Positions 59,696-64,000 of a DNA stretch of 64,000 nucleotides are shown here, in pieces. Each line of letters begins with the position of its first letter. Position 1 is the first letter of the stretch. The DNA comes from Halobacteriales archaeon QH_7_65_31 (lineage in GTDB: Archaea; Halobacteriota; Halobacteria; Halobacteriales; Haloarculaceae): NCBI GenBank assembly GCA_003021785.1, contig PXQU01000004.1, positions 143,363 through 207,362 of the forward strand, read 5' to 3'. Under the pieces are notes generated by a model that was not told the DNA's origin, did no database searches, and was given only the letters and a program-made list of their open reading frames with translations. A program made the position numbers and the translations under genes.

Positions 59696-60519
59696 CTCCG
59701 CCCGGAACCACTCGGGCTGATCGACGTGGACCCAGTGGCTCGCGCCCTCGCAGCGCGCGACGGTCGGAGCGCGACATCGTCGGTCCCCCACAGCAGCTTC
59801 GTCGGCACGGCGATACGATCCGGTGCGTCGAACGGTCGCCGGAGCGTCCGGCGTCCGAGCGCGCGGTAGTAGTTGAGACTCGCCGTGAGACCCCCCTCGC
59901 GTCGCCACGCGCCGAGATACCGCTCGGTGTCCGTGTCGTCGTGCCCGGAGAGGGGACGATACATCTCGCGGAGCGCTCGGTACTCGCGCGCCCGAAGGAG
60001 TCGCTCGGGGAGCCACGGGAGCTGGAACAGCCCCGCGTACCACGACCGAAGCAGCTGTCTGCCCCGAAGCTGTGCGGGGAGTCGTTCGGGGTCGAGCGTG
60101 TTCGCGACGGCCAGCCGCTCGATGCGGTCGGGGTGGTGGCGCGCGACGGAGAGCGCGAGCGAGCCGCCCCAGTCGTGCCCGACGAGCGTCGCCGTGCCGT
60201 CACCGAACCGGTCGATGAGGTCACACACGTCCGTCCGGAGTCCGTCGAGCCGGTAGGCGTCGACTCCTTCGGGCCGCGTCGACCGGTTGTAGCCGCGGAG
60301 ATCCGGCGCGACGACGCGGTACGTCTCGGCCAGCGGGGCGATGTGATCGCGCCACGTGTACCAGCAGTCGGGAAACCCGTGGAGCAGGAGGAGCAGGGGG
60401 CCACGCGTCGGGCCGGCAGCGACGTAGTGGATCGGGCCGACCGAGCAGTCGGCAAAGCCCACCTCGAAGCCCCGCTCGTCTGCCCACCGTTCTGCTGGAC
60501 CTGGCTCCGGGTGGCTCAT
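59675..60519 (-). pseudogene. Alpha/beta hydrolase (epoxide hydrolase-like) with a 3' frameshift
   Basis: GPLLLLLHGFPDCWYTWRDHI...ATLVGHDWGGSLALSVA...WGTDDVALRP in one frame; conserved C-terminus PTVARCEGASHWVHVDQPEWFRAELRAFLR* continues in another frame. Confidence 0.78.
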
Positions 60520-60669
60520 CGGTTCTCTGGGTCGATAGTGACGTTATTGCCGGAACAGAGACCAACGCCAGCAAGCAGCCAATGTGCGACTTCGAGCGAC
60601 TCCATGTCTGGCATCTACGTGCAGCGGCGTGGTAAAGCCGGGCGATGTGGACGAGAAACTGGTAACCAC

Positions 60670-60760
60670 GCTGTGGCGACGATCCAGACAAGTAAGCTTG
60701 TGAACTACCCCACCCTACCGCTCGCCTGACGGCTCGCGCTTGAGGGTGGGGCTTCCTGCT
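60670..60760 (-). other. Right-end hairpin of the tnpB element (candidate 3' part of an omega/reRNA)
   Basis: ccccaccct...agggtgggg stem (9 bp) overlapping the tnpB stop; minus strand CCCCACCCTCAAGCGCGAGCCGTCAGGCGAGCGGTAGGGTGGGGTAGTTCACAAGC. Confidence 0.55.
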
Positions 60761-61990
60761 TCCACGACGCACTTTGCAGACACCGAGGTATCCACAGGGA
60801 GTGCAGTCTCCACAGGCGTTAATTCGGAGTGTCCCGCTCCTAACCGCTTCGTGATACCGCGAGCAAGAATATTCCACGCCGCGTTCGCGTCTCTATCCGC
60901 CTCAAAGCCACACGCTGGACAGGAGTGTTCACGGACCCACAGCGGTTTGTCCGTCGAGACGCCGCAGGACGCACACTCTTTGGTCGTTCCGCGTGGGTTC
61001 ACCGCCACGAAGTGCGTTCCTTCGCGTTCGCACTTGTACTCAAGCATCCGCCGGAACGTCCCCCACGCCGCTCCGGCGCGGTTTCGTGAGTTGCCCGGCA
61101 GTTCGATCAACCCCTTCGCGTCCAAGTCTTCGACTGCCACCAAGTCGTACTCAGTGGCGTAGTAGTTTGAGAGTTTGTGGAGGAAATCACGACGTTTTCG
61201 CTTGAGGTCGGCGTGGCGTTCGGCCACGACGCACCGCTGTTTCTCCCAATTCGCGGAACCGTGCTGTTTCCGTGAGAGGTCACGCTGTGCGCGTTCTAAT
61301 CGTTCGCGTTCGTCCGAGAGGTCGAGCGATTTGACGGCGATTCCGTCCGTGTCGTGGGCGTACGTGAGAATCCCCACGTCGATACCAACGCACTGCTCGG
61401 GATTCTCCGGTTTCTCCGGCGGGTCGTCAGGTGTTTCAACACCGAGGATGGCGTACCACTTGCCGGTGGGTTCGCGTTTGATGATGACGGTCTTGATGTC
61501 GGCGTCGTCGGGGGGATCACGGTGGACGGTGATGGGAATCTCGCCGAGTTTCGAGAGCCACAGTTGCGCCCGGCCACTCGTGTTTTTGAGTTCGAAGCCG
61601 TCATCAGAAATCGTAGATTTCTGATTGCCCATCAGACGTAGTCTGATGACCGGATTGACTGTAGGTGAAACTACGGTACTCGCCCTTACCTTTCCACTTG
61701 AGCGTCCCGACGTGGTAGCCGTTCTCTTTGCGCCCACGAAGTGTTGAGAGGTTGTTGTACAGCCGTTGTACGACTTTCTGAAGAACCTTCGAGTGGACAC
61801 TTTTCAGGTCGGTCCACCACTGCTTGAGACTCGGCAAGAGCTTCTGTTCGCTGTATGCTGAGGTGTCATCGGTGCGGTTGAGACGGTAAAGAAAGTGGTT
61901 GTAGACCTGCCGACAGGTATCGACAGTCCACGCTAACTGCTTTTCGAGAGCGTCGGACGGTCGGAGCCGATACCTGTAGTTGTAGTTCAT
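60715..61990 (-). mobile_element. tnpB: IS200/IS605-group tnpB (RNA-guided nuclease family), split into two ORFs by a two-hairpin insertion
   Basis: N-part 61604..61990 MNYNYRYRLRPSDALEKQLAWTVDTCRQVYNHFLYRL...GEYRSFTYSQSG; C-part 60715..about 61632 FELKNTSGRAQLWLSKLGEIPITVHR...GIDVGILTYAHD...LVAVEDLDAKGL...CASCGVSTDKPLWVREHSCPACGFEADRDANAAWNIL. Confidence 0.9.
61599..61650. repeat. About 52-bp two-hairpin insertion inside tnpB
   Basis: atcagaaatc-gta-gatttctgat (61603-61625) and catcagac-gta-gtctgatg (61630-61648), with outer gtcatcaga/tctgatgac inverted ends. Confidence 0.8.
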
Positions 61991-62113
61991 CTACGAGCGT
62001 TCTTCGATGAGTTCGTCAAGTTTCTCTTGCACGAACGAGGACAGGCTCAGGTGATTCTCCTGAATCCACTCCTCTTGATCGTCGCGGATAGAGATGTTCT
62101 TGCGCGTTGTCAC
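61991..62113 (-). CDS. 40-aa RHH-like leader protein directly upstream of tnpB
   Basis: GTG start at 62113; (V)TTRKNISIRDDQEEWIQENHLSLSSFVQEKLDELIEERS*, TAG immediately followed by the tnpB ATG. Too short for the ORF track. Confidence 0.72.
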   Translation of the reverse strand: MTTRKNISIRDDQEEWIQENHLSLSSFVQEKLDELIEERS

Positions 62114-62191
62114 ACCATATAATACACAAACTACACAAATAAGATTTTCGATGGCGTAGGCCTGCGGGCCGAGTGTCAGACGTGTTCGATA

Positions 62192-62313
62192 CTTGTGCGG
62201 CGTTACCGAGACGCGAAGCGTCTCGTTCGCACACCAGAAATCGAAGATTTCTGGGGACGTCCTCAGAAACGCGCCGCGTTTCTGATGGGCCGCACAAGAG
62301 CTTCGCTCTTGTG
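62192..62313. repeat. Cluster of perfect triloop hairpins enclosed by a 10-bp inverted repeat (cloverleaf-like)
   Basis: Closing arms cttgtgcggc (62192-62201)/gccgcacaag (62289-62298); hairpins 62207-62225 cgagacgc-gaa-gcgtctcg, 62234-62254 ccagaaatc-gaa-gatttctgg, 62263-62285 tcagaaacgc-gcc-gcgtttctga; overlapping fourth hairpin 62293-62313 cacaagagc-ttc-gctcttgtg. Confidence 0.85.
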
Positions 62314-62372
62314 AACGCTGTATCCCCTCCCTACTCGCTCCCTTCGGTCGCTCCTTGAGGGAGGGGCATTAG
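62310..62372 (-). other. Second copy of the tnpB right-end-like hairpin, without its own tnpB
   Basis: Minus strand CCCCTCCCTCAAGGAGCGACCGAAGGGAGCGAGTAGGGAGGGGATACAGCGTTCACAAG compared with the right end CCCCACCCTCAAGCGCGAGCCGTCAGGCGAGCGGTAGGGTGGGGTAGTTCACAAG. Confidence 0.6.
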
Positions 62373-62419
62373 CGCCTCAATTCAGATAACCTTGTAATCC
62401 CGCCCGTCGAGAACCGGAC

Positions 62420-62932
62420 GTGAACAAGAAAGGCCACGTTCTGAACGGAGTCCTCCTCGCGATCGGACTCGGCTACGTCCTCGAACCCGCCGGCGACGTA
62501 GCGACGTTCCGCACGATCGCCGCGACGCTCGTCCCCGTGACGCTCGGCGCACTGCTCCCCGACGTGGACACCGCGTTCGGCAAACACCGGAAGACCCTGC
62601 ATAACCTCCCGGTGCTCCTGATCGTCGCGGCCTACCCCATCTACTTCGGCAATCTCCAGTACGTCTGGATCGGCGTCGCCACCCACTACGCCCTCGATAT
62701 CATCGGCTCGCGGCGAGGGATCGCGCTCTTCTATCCGCTATCGAGCACCGAGTACGGCTTCCCGACCGGGGTGACGACCTCCTCGACGTACGCCGACGCG
62801 GTGACGGTCGTCGTGACGATCGTCGAGCTCGCGCTCATCGCCGTCGTCGTCCACGTCGTGCCGGGGTTGCTCGATACGGCGGTAGAATCGCTCCCGTACG
62901 CAGTCGAGAACACGACGAACGTGTTCTCGTGA
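62420..62932 (+). CDS. YdjM-like membrane-bound metal-dependent hydrolase
   Basis: KKGHVLNGVLLAIGLGYVLEPAG...LGALLPDVDTAFGKHRKTLHNLPVLLI...ATHYALDIIGSRRGIALFYPLSSTEYGFP. Confidence 0.88.
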   Translation: MNKKGHVLNGVLLAIGLGYVLEPAGDVATFRTIAATLVPVTLGALLPDVDTAFGKHRKTLHNLPVLLIVAAYPIYFGNLQYVWIGVATHYALDIIGSRRGIALFYPLSSTEYGFPTGVTTSSTYADAVTVVVTIVELALIAVVVHVVPGLLDTAVESLPYAVENTTNVFS

Positions 62933-62936
62933 GGGA

Positions 62937-63686
62937 TCAGTAGACGCTCACGTCGTCGAACCGGTCGCCGTACGCGACGTTCTCGGGATGCGTCGGCTCC
63001 GTCCCCGAGAGAAAGAGGCGGTCGATCTTCTTCCAGCTGTTCTCGTAGCCGAGATGCGCGTACTCCAGATGGCGGCGGAGGGCGTGATCGTAGCCGTCGC
63101 GATGGAAGACCCGCCTCGGCGCCTCGTCGCGGAACGCCGCCACGACCGACTCGCGGCTGTTGAGCGCCCCCTCGAACGCCGTCCACACCTCACCGACCGT
63201 GCCGCGGAGATGCGCGTACGAGGAGCCGAAGCCGGGAAGCCCCGTCTCGTCTGCGATCCGCTGTGCGCGCTCGTTCTGGTACTCCCGGTGTTTCGGGTTG
63301 TACACCTCTGCGGCCGAGAGCCTGTCGCGATACCGTCGGATCTCGTCGGGACCGAGACTGACGGTCGCGAACTCCGGGTGCGGGACGAGCCCGACGCCGT
63401 CCTGTCGGTCGAGTTCGGCCATCGCGCCGTCGAGGGTGATAAAGTCCGGAATCGGCTCCGAGAGTCCGAGCATCAGCACGTGGCGGCGCGAGCGCCAGTC
63501 GCCGGTGAACACCTCGCGAGCGGGGACGACGATGAGGTCCTCGTCGGCGAACCGGCGGGCGCGAGCGCGGATCTCGTCGAGCCGGATGAAATGCGGCGCG
63601 TAGACGATGGCGTCCAGCCCGCGCTGTTTCGCCCGACGCACGACGCGCTCGTCCAAGATCTTCACGTGTGGATCGACCCGGAACAC
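62937..63686 (-). CDS. PHP-domain protein
   Basis: FRVDPHVKILDERVVRRAKQRGLDAIVYAPHF...VVPAREVFTGDWRSRRHVLMLGL...VGLVPHPEF. Confidence 0.85.
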   Translation of the reverse strand: MFRVDPHVKILDERVVRRAKQRGLDAIVYAPHFIRLDEIRARARRFADEDLIVVPAREVFTGDWRSRRHVLMLGLSEPIPDFITLDGAMAELDRQDGVGLVPHPEFATVSLGPDEIRRYRDRLSAAEVYNPKHREYQNERAQRIADETGLPGFGSSYAHLRGTVGEVWTAFEGALNSRESVVAAFRDEAPRRVFHRDGYDHALRRHLEYAHLGYENSWKKIDRLFLSGTEPTHPENVAYGDRFDDVSVY

Positions 63687-63773
63687 AGCCGACAGTGGAG
63701 CGAGGTCGGCTTATCCGTTTCCGTCGGCGGCGTATCCCGAACGTATAAATGCGACCGGGAGGAGAGTCGTCGT

Positions 63774-64000
63774 ATGTGGTCGTGTGCGATCGACGGCTGT
63801 GGCACGGAGACAGAGCGCGTCGAAGATCTCGTCGTCCATCAGGCGCAAGACCACGAGCGCGTCCAGTGTCCGGTGTGTGCGACGGTGCTTCCGGACGGCT
63901 ACTTCGCGATCAAACACACCTTCGAGGAGCACAGCCGGACGGACTTCATGCGGGCGTACGATGCCGACTCGAAGGACATCCGCCAGCGTGAGTCAGTCAT
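63774..64000 (+). CDS. Zinc-finger-containing protein, truncated by window end
   Basis: MWSCAIDGCGTETERVEDLVVHQAQDHERVQCPVCATVLPDGYFAIKHTFEEHSRTDFMRAY; CxxxxC...HxxxxH and CxxC...H pattern, runs off the window. Confidence 0.65.
   Translation, partial: MWSCAIDGCGTETERVEDLVVHQAQDHERVQCPVCATVLPDGYFAIKHTFEEHSRTDFMRAYDADSKDIRQRESV

Follow-up and report, generated by a model that had tools for sequence, protein, structure and literature searches.

What are the short perfect hairpins that crowd together upstream of a tnpB gene in the genome of Halobacteriales archaeon QH_7_65_31? The window analysed here is a 64,000-nucleotide stretch of this genome. The original prediction, made from the window alone, described a cloverleaf-like array of four perfect triloop hairpins with a 10-bp closing stem, and all four were confirmed, with stems of 8-10 bp (Table 1). 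The closing stem was also real on direct reading (62192-62201 with 62289-62298, cttgtgcggc/gccgcacaag), but it consisted of the conserved target flank paired with part of one unit. Because the same unit pair at locus L060 lies beside a different flank (CCGTCATC) and has no closing stem there, the cloverleaf was not a conserved feature and was judged coincidental. Related hairpins inside tnpB were found as claimed (61603-61625 and 61630-61648), and of the seven triloop hairpins in the whole window whose stems reach at least 8 bp, six fell in 61603-62313; shuffles gave a mean of 2.6 such hairpins per window. Over 456 kb of this genome, triloop hairpins formed six pairs spaced no more than 14 nt apart, and six dinucleotide shuffles reproduced none, while the number of single triloop hairpins was raised modestly, about twofold (43 versus 21.5 in shuffles). 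The excess over chance is in the clustering of the hairpins, not in the number of single ones.

Table 1. Features of the hairpin cluster and its host element, in window coordinates. Stems are in parentheses around their loops.
Feature	Position	Strand	Basis or remark
Hairpin, 8 bp, triloop gaa	62207-62225	.	perfect stem
Hairpin, 9 bp, triloop gaa	62234-62254	.	perfect stem
Hairpin, 10 bp, triloop gcc	62263-62285	.	perfect stem
Hairpin, 9 bp, triloop ttc	62293-62313	.	perfect stem
Unit A, type A double hairpin, 59 bp	62201..62259	-	covariance model R1 match G000:C4:205563-205621
Unit A, sequence			CGTCC-(CCAGAAATC ttc GATTTCTGG)-TGTGCGA-(ACGAGACGC ttc GCGTCTCG)-GTAACG
Unit B, second double hairpin, 60 bp	62258..62317	-	direct reading
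Unit B, sequence			CGTTC-(ACAAGAGC gaa GCTCTTGT)-GCGGCCCA-(TCAGAAACGC ggc GCGTTTCTGA)-GGACG
Whole insertion, 115 bp (array plus one CG)	62203..62317	-	tnpB left ends compared in filled and empty form
Third unit, type C, 52 bp	61601..61652	-	aligned homologues L198-L202 have an unbroken tnpB
tnpB (IS1341-type), split by the 52-bp unit	60715..61990	-	Pfam HTH_OrfB_IS605, OrfB_IS605, Cas12f1-like_TNB
IS left-end hairpin (GGCGCTAATGCCCCTCCCTC...GAGGGGATACAGCG), insertion target; outer limit approximate	62316..62386	-	shared by related tnpB elements whether or not they carry units
IS right end, no unit inserted; limits approximate	60695..60760	-	direct reading

The cluster consists of two double-hairpin units in tandem, with lengths of about 59 and 60 bp; each has CG at both ends, and they share the CG at 62258-62259. 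On the minus strand, which is that of tnpB, the first half of the array reads GGGGATACAG-CG-TTC(ACAAGAGC gaa GCTCTTGT)GCGGCCCA(TCAGAAACGC ggc GCGTTTCTGA)GGA-CG, and the second half continues from that CG with TCC(CCAGAAATC ttc GATTTCTGG)TGTGCGA(ACGAGACGC ttc GCGTCTCG)GTAA-CG-CCGCACAAG. Units of the type of unit A were also found flush between conserved flanks in more than 70 loci, and units resembling unit B at L003, L037, L051, L060, and L126. The best-defined consensus is that of type A, CGTCC-(CCAGAANNC NNN GNNTTCTGG)-TGTGCGA-(ACGAGACGC NNN GCGTCTCGT)-CAACG, which was derived by reading loci that match ACGAGACGC-NNN-GCGTCTCGT. Other unit types share the common plan as CGGT..GGCA..GACGG, as GACATC..TAGCA..GACA (a burst in one genome), and as CGTC-ATCAGAACGC..TGGC..ACG (dispersed copies within larger palindromes). 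The terminal tag is CGTCC in type A, where the search pattern fixed this start, CGTC in the copies of genomes G194 and G204, and TGTC in the burst of G259; CGTC was also present in copies found without that pattern and in other types. Stem length was 7-10 bp (mode 9), and the two ends of a unit matched each other as CGT/ACG alone, with no longer terminal inverted repeats. The element would thus be a dimer with CG at either end, in which a short linker connects two perfect triloop hairpins of 7-10 bp.

Comparison with related tnpB elements separated the units from their host. The tnpB element has a left-end hairpin, and the array is located in the closing stem of this hairpin. Nine tnpB left ends were empty at this point, reading GGGGATACAG-CG-CCG or CG-CCCG with a single CG, and seven, the window among them, carried CG-unit(s)-CG; the empty relatives of the window site read GGGGATACAG-CG-CCGCAC and others CCGTCATC, with nothing inserted. 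The comparison of several left ends that the original prediction had proposed yielded both filled and empty forms, and since related tnpB elements exist without units, the units are insertions into the IS end and not the end itself, so that an origin of the array as a transposase-recognised end was not borne out. The third unit in tnpB was flanked by the direct repeat CGG, all five aligned homologues being uninterrupted there, and it shifts the reading frame since 52 is not a multiple of 3.

For 88 of 114 type A units, the flanks joined with one CG gave a gap-free match to an empty site; these matches are not independent, because many fall at one left-end or right-end site, and the empty sites come from homologous IS copies of other genomes, not from sister strains compared at one locus. 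Instead of many independent events, the frequent left-end and right-end sites may reflect a few old insertions that the IS carried along as it spread. Target contexts favored CG-Y-C-G: 50 of 72 distinct contexts had CGYNG, compared with 17% among all CGs. A short-loop hairpin (stem at least 7, loop at most 10; loops up to 70 nt were too noisy for scoring) was present at 22% of the target contexts versus 4% of control CGs, and examples from direct reading were the left-end closing stem GGCGCT/AGCG|CC, CCCGCC-GTGAAC-GGCGGG, and CTGCGG-ctttag-CCGCAG. In tandem arrays, head-to-tail neighbors had one CG in common, and the same insertion site was found occupied by different unit types. At the level of sequence comparison, the units were shown to be discrete insertions at CG, apparently preferring palindromes and above all IS200/IS605-type ends. 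From the predicted mobile hairpin accumulating in tandem, mobility and tandem growth were upheld by the empty and filled sites, the recurrence, and the head-to-tail arrays, while the repeat unit proved to be the CG-bounded hairpin pair instead of a single palindrome.

This recurrence extended to nearly all haloarchaea. The stem ACGAGACGC-NNN-GCGTCTCGT was found in 52 of 147 relatives with freely varying loops (none for the reversed control), and the consensus pattern, searched against GTDB genomes (264 billion bases), gave 105 stretches, with all 80 of the 80 listed being haloarchaeal. The covariance model R1, built from 73 type A units, matched 180 of 196 Halobacteriales genomes and 154 of the 158 good ones; in a phylum-wide sample 41 genomes had a match, only one of them outside Halobacteriales, and the counts in both surveys are lower bounds with 22-28 candidates scored per genome. 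That one genome (G285) had a single match with an E value of 6.5e-7, owing to transfer or chance. The linker TGTGCGA and the feet CGTCC and CAACG were conserved over more than 25 genera, dispersed high-copy CGTC-tagged families were present in G194 and G204, and 59 records of haloarchaeal plasmids carried units. The highest copy number was 86 R1 matches in Halobacteriales archaeon YIM A00010, in which a genome-wide burst of TGTC-tagged units was also observed. No match was found in IMG/VR or phage records, and a viral origin was rejected on this basis. The elements thus appear to be near-universal in haloarchaea.

A gene that might mobilise the units was sought among the ORFs near 87 loci. Their clustering gave TnpB at 47 loci, TnpA (Y1) at 7, one DDE family at 6, and little else, TnpB and TnpA being assigned by reading representative sequences; no dedicated mobilising gene was found among these clusters, and a dedicated transposase beside the units was rejected on this basis. 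The presence of TnpB and Y1 TnpA near units can be explained by their being insertion targets. The resident Y1 transposase was also rejected as the driver, since Y1_Tnp was only a weak correlate of copy number (Spearman 0.30) and no Y1 was found in many high-copy genomes: 13 genomes without a Y1_Tnp match carried 10-21 R1 matches, and eight of them, at least 94% complete, carried 12-18 each (all lower bounds).

Conservation of the stems and loops bears on whether the units act as DNA or as RNA. In the 73 type A units, 98.3% of the stem cells were paired, and changes were two-sided in 83 cells and one-sided in 4, with 0 of 500 shuffles reaching any of these measures; part of the stems was fixed by the search pattern, and in most rows the inner pairs alone were free to vary. 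The claim that stem sequences differ while the architecture is conserved was therefore correct, and these counts and those of the loops quantify it. Among the 417 hairpins of all arrays, which have 134 distinct stems, the closing pair was C-G in 98.6% versus 63.6% in solitary triloop hairpins, and GNA or TNC loops made up 65% versus 28%, the scan covering 3-nt loops only. C-GNA-G is an exceptionally stable DNA minihairpin (PMC4686876). Together with the near absence of G-U intermediates, such loops favor DNA over RNA as the selected form, which we infer rather than regard as proven, as palindromes could also stay perfect by strand switching; GNA and TNC were equally common, giving no strand bias to back a single-stranded form. 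The single-stranded DNA folding z was -8.1 versus shuffles (62200-62319). That the array is a structured non-coding RNA or an RNA-processing signal, selected as RNA upstream of tnpB, would agree with an RNA folding z of -5.8 versus shuffles (62150-62400) and with the strong covariation. However, there was no Rfam match up to E=1 in 60000-64000, the closing stem was not conserved, the ratio of 4 one-sided (G-U type) to 83 two-sided changes is unusual for RNA, the DNA-specific GNA minihairpin loop and the loop complementary to it were favored to the same degree, and units also occurred within coding regions and intergenic palindromes. The structured RNA of the original prediction was rejected accordingly, and we consider this reading highly improbable.

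Three further explanations were weighed. If the units were functional parts of IS200/IS605 ends, either hairpins recognised by TnpA or pieces of omega-RNA/reRNA, inherited with the IS, it would be understandable that they are found most often in the left end next to GGGGATACAG and in the near-terminal hairpin CCCGCC-GTGAAC-GGCGGG, that TnpB is the commonest neighbor, and that many copies could hitch-hike with the IS. This improbable reading is already largely refuted by closely related ISs that have no units at the same position, by copies interrupting tnpB, by the many dispersed-site copies in G194 and G204, and by single sites that hold different unit types. It is unlikely, too, that the palindromes have no dedicated mobility and arise and spread through replication template switching and gene conversion with IS ends as hot spots, although the scarcity of mismatched or G-U intermediates fits palindrome repair by strand switching and no resident Y1 transposase is required. 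The linkers (TGTGCGA) and feet (CGTCC, CAACG) conserved over more than 25 genera and the fixed CG boundary need sequence-specific recognition, and the insertion in tnpB of a unit absent from the homologues is clean. Movement by a DDE enzyme or serine recombinase whose core is CG (a 2-bp direct repeat), and not as single-stranded DNA, would account for boundaries that are CG dinucleotides present once in the empty sites, and the 2-bp CG repeat is also compatible with a target-site duplication or a serine recombinase core. Such an enzyme is nevertheless a poor candidate: terminal inverted repeats beyond CGT/ACG are absent, conservation falls on hairpins whose loops are stable as DNA, the targets are often hairpins, and no such gene recurred near units except the DDE family at 6 of 87 loci.

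Our favored reading, held with a probability of roughly 0.7, takes the array for a tandem pair of copies of a non-autonomous mobile DNA element, which would be moved as single-stranded DNA by an HUH-type enzyme. The discrete insertion, the fixed CG boundary, and the conserved feet and linkers argue for an enzyme that recognises specific sequence and moves a non-autonomous element in trans. Single-stranded HUH transfer is preferred because both the cargo and the favored targets are hairpins and because the head-to-tail joints equal the joint expected of a circle, CAACG|TCC. During its movement the element would be a single DNA strand with both of its hairpins folded; an HUH-type site-specific nuclease or ligase would cut at the terminal CG in trans, and the cut element would be joined after a CG in another hairpin. 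The terminal CG of a resident copy would then offer a new target, by which arrays could build up, and the likely effect would be the disruption of IS ends and tnpB. More tentatively, a haloarchaea-wide class of hairpin dimers might move single-stranded from hairpin to hairpin through a nuclease that reads the CG foot and the GNA-type minihairpin, and might act as a natural brake on IS200/IS605 transposons and their RNA-guided nucleases, TnpB, since the elements home to end hairpins and tnpB.

A close likeness to a described system is with the CGTC-tagged REPs of Di Nocera et al. 2013, which include RPE-4/RPE-6 of Rickettsia and dRS3 of Neisseria, were reported from five bacterial phyla with no archaea in the text, have a terminal tag of CGTC (or TGTC/CCTC), and form short stems and outward-tagged dimers, sometimes within palindromes or genes, with no dedicated transposase (PMC3733652). 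In both groups a CGTC (also TGTC) tag lies outside a short stem of 8-9 bp in bacteria and 7-10 bp (mode 9) here, HH dimers point their tags outward (here CGT...ACG at the two ends of the hairpin pair), and copies are sometimes inside coding regions and larger palindromes. The AT stem start recurs in haloarchaeal CGTC-ATCAGAA units, while type A stems start with CC (CCAGAA), and the bacterial CCA tail is similar but not identical to the haloarchaeal linkers, which read GCCA, CAGCCCA, TCGCACA, and TGCTA from the other hairpin. The bacterial loop is 4-5 nt, whereas that of the units here is 3 nt with a near-invariant C-G closing pair and equals 5 nt only when this pair is counted as loop; most type A copies are in IS200/IS605 ends, and the bacterial repeats are not associated with transposase genes. 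As several unit types fit the tag, stem, and dimer but the 3-nt loop differs, the units are named CGTC-REP-like instead of a new kind, and we read the family as putative archaeal CGTC-tagged REP-like mobile dimers. They are apparently the first archaeal members of REP-like dimers. Searches of the open-access literature by words and by sequence gave no archaeal description of these units.

In haloarchaea themselves, Dyall-Smith et al. 2011 described SMR-A elements (HqIRS42, HqIRS43, HqIRS55) from Haloquadratum walsbyi as about 110 bp long with prominent inverted terminal repeats and an enigmatic mobilisation (PMC3119063). Like them, the present units are haloarchaeal, non-coding, and of many copies, and SMR-A insert into palindromes close to the termini of IS605-type transposons and of PATEs, which corresponds to the IS605-type ends occupied here. 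Unlike SMR-A, with about 110 bp and ITRs, the units have 52-60 bp, two internal palindromes, and only CGT/ACG ends, but a tandem pair of units in opposite orientations would have the appearance of one 110-bp ITR element. To judge by description, the units are probably equivalent to SMR-A; an identification through 110-bp ITR repeats was tried in a 400-kb sample of Haloquadratum J07HQW1, in which no clear family of this kind was found. The PATEs are likewise transposase-free haloarchaeal mobile elements with palindromes, but they are reduced IS605 elements and are themselves targets of such insertions, and the units differ from an IS200/IS605 end, MITE, or PATE in that the IS exists without them.

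GTAG REPs, REPINs, and BIMEs with RAYT (TnpA-REP) resemble the units as short hairpin dimers of high copy number with presumed single-stranded DNA mobility in trans. They differ in the tag, which is GTAG there while the units begin with CGTC/CGTT/TGTC, and in the associated Y1 gene, Y1 being near only 7 of 87 loci and 13 genomes with at least 10 R1 matches having no Y1_Tnp match. Published archaeal Y1 proteins all belong to IS200 subclass 1.1 and none to the REP-associated subclasses (PMC6006769), so no RAYT is expected. Mitochondrial double-hairpin elements (DHE), or repetitive hairpin-forming elements, also consist of two short hairpins and a linker and are mobile and non-coding, but their hosts are unrelated and the likeness is of form alone.

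The movement of CGTC REPs and of haloarchaeal SMR-A has been an open question since 2011-2013. The present family would extend REP-like dimers to archaea and gives a precise anatomy, with CG boundary, CG-Y-C-G target, double hairpin, and GNA triloop, in hosts that are culturable, genetically tractable haloarchaea with genomes of dozens of copies. It suggests that single-stranded DNA hairpins serve as cargo as well as target, and it shows one route by which IS200/IS605 and tnpB copies may become disabled. Annotation of omega-RNA and TnpB in haloarchaea should allow for units in end hairpins and in tnpB.

Several minor observations were made on the host elements and arrays. A 40-aa ORF with a GTG start (TTRKNISIRDDQEEWIQENHLSLSSFVQEKLDELIEERS) at 61991-62113 on the minus strand abuts the tnpB start (TAGATG), and other elements of this IS group have a different small ORF in its place (GHEVVDGDVKATGNGAHVYVPKRWRGADVKVVR, with a weak DUF2080 match); the small genes upstream of tnpB appear to be exchangeable. 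At L307, in another genome, a different double-hairpin unit occupies the tnpB site of the 52-bp unit of the window; this junction, between CAATCCGG and CTTCGAACTC, is a hot spot within tnpB, and a second one lies near the tnpB 3' end, between GAATCAACG and CCTGTGGAG. An insertion inside an orc1/cdc6 gene (plasmid hit H17) was rejected, as the unit lies in the left end of a neighboring tnpA-tnpB element and only the annotated gene start overlaps it. Four paralogous, possibly coding stretches of one genome (L298-L301) carry near-identical units at the same position. In G194 (L315-L322), units lie within a larger dispersed repeated palindrome (AGTCGCGAGGACG...CGTCCTCGCGACT), and the loci L106 (3592-4112) and L304-L311 showed very long arrays of more than 10 hairpins and the burst of YIM A00010.
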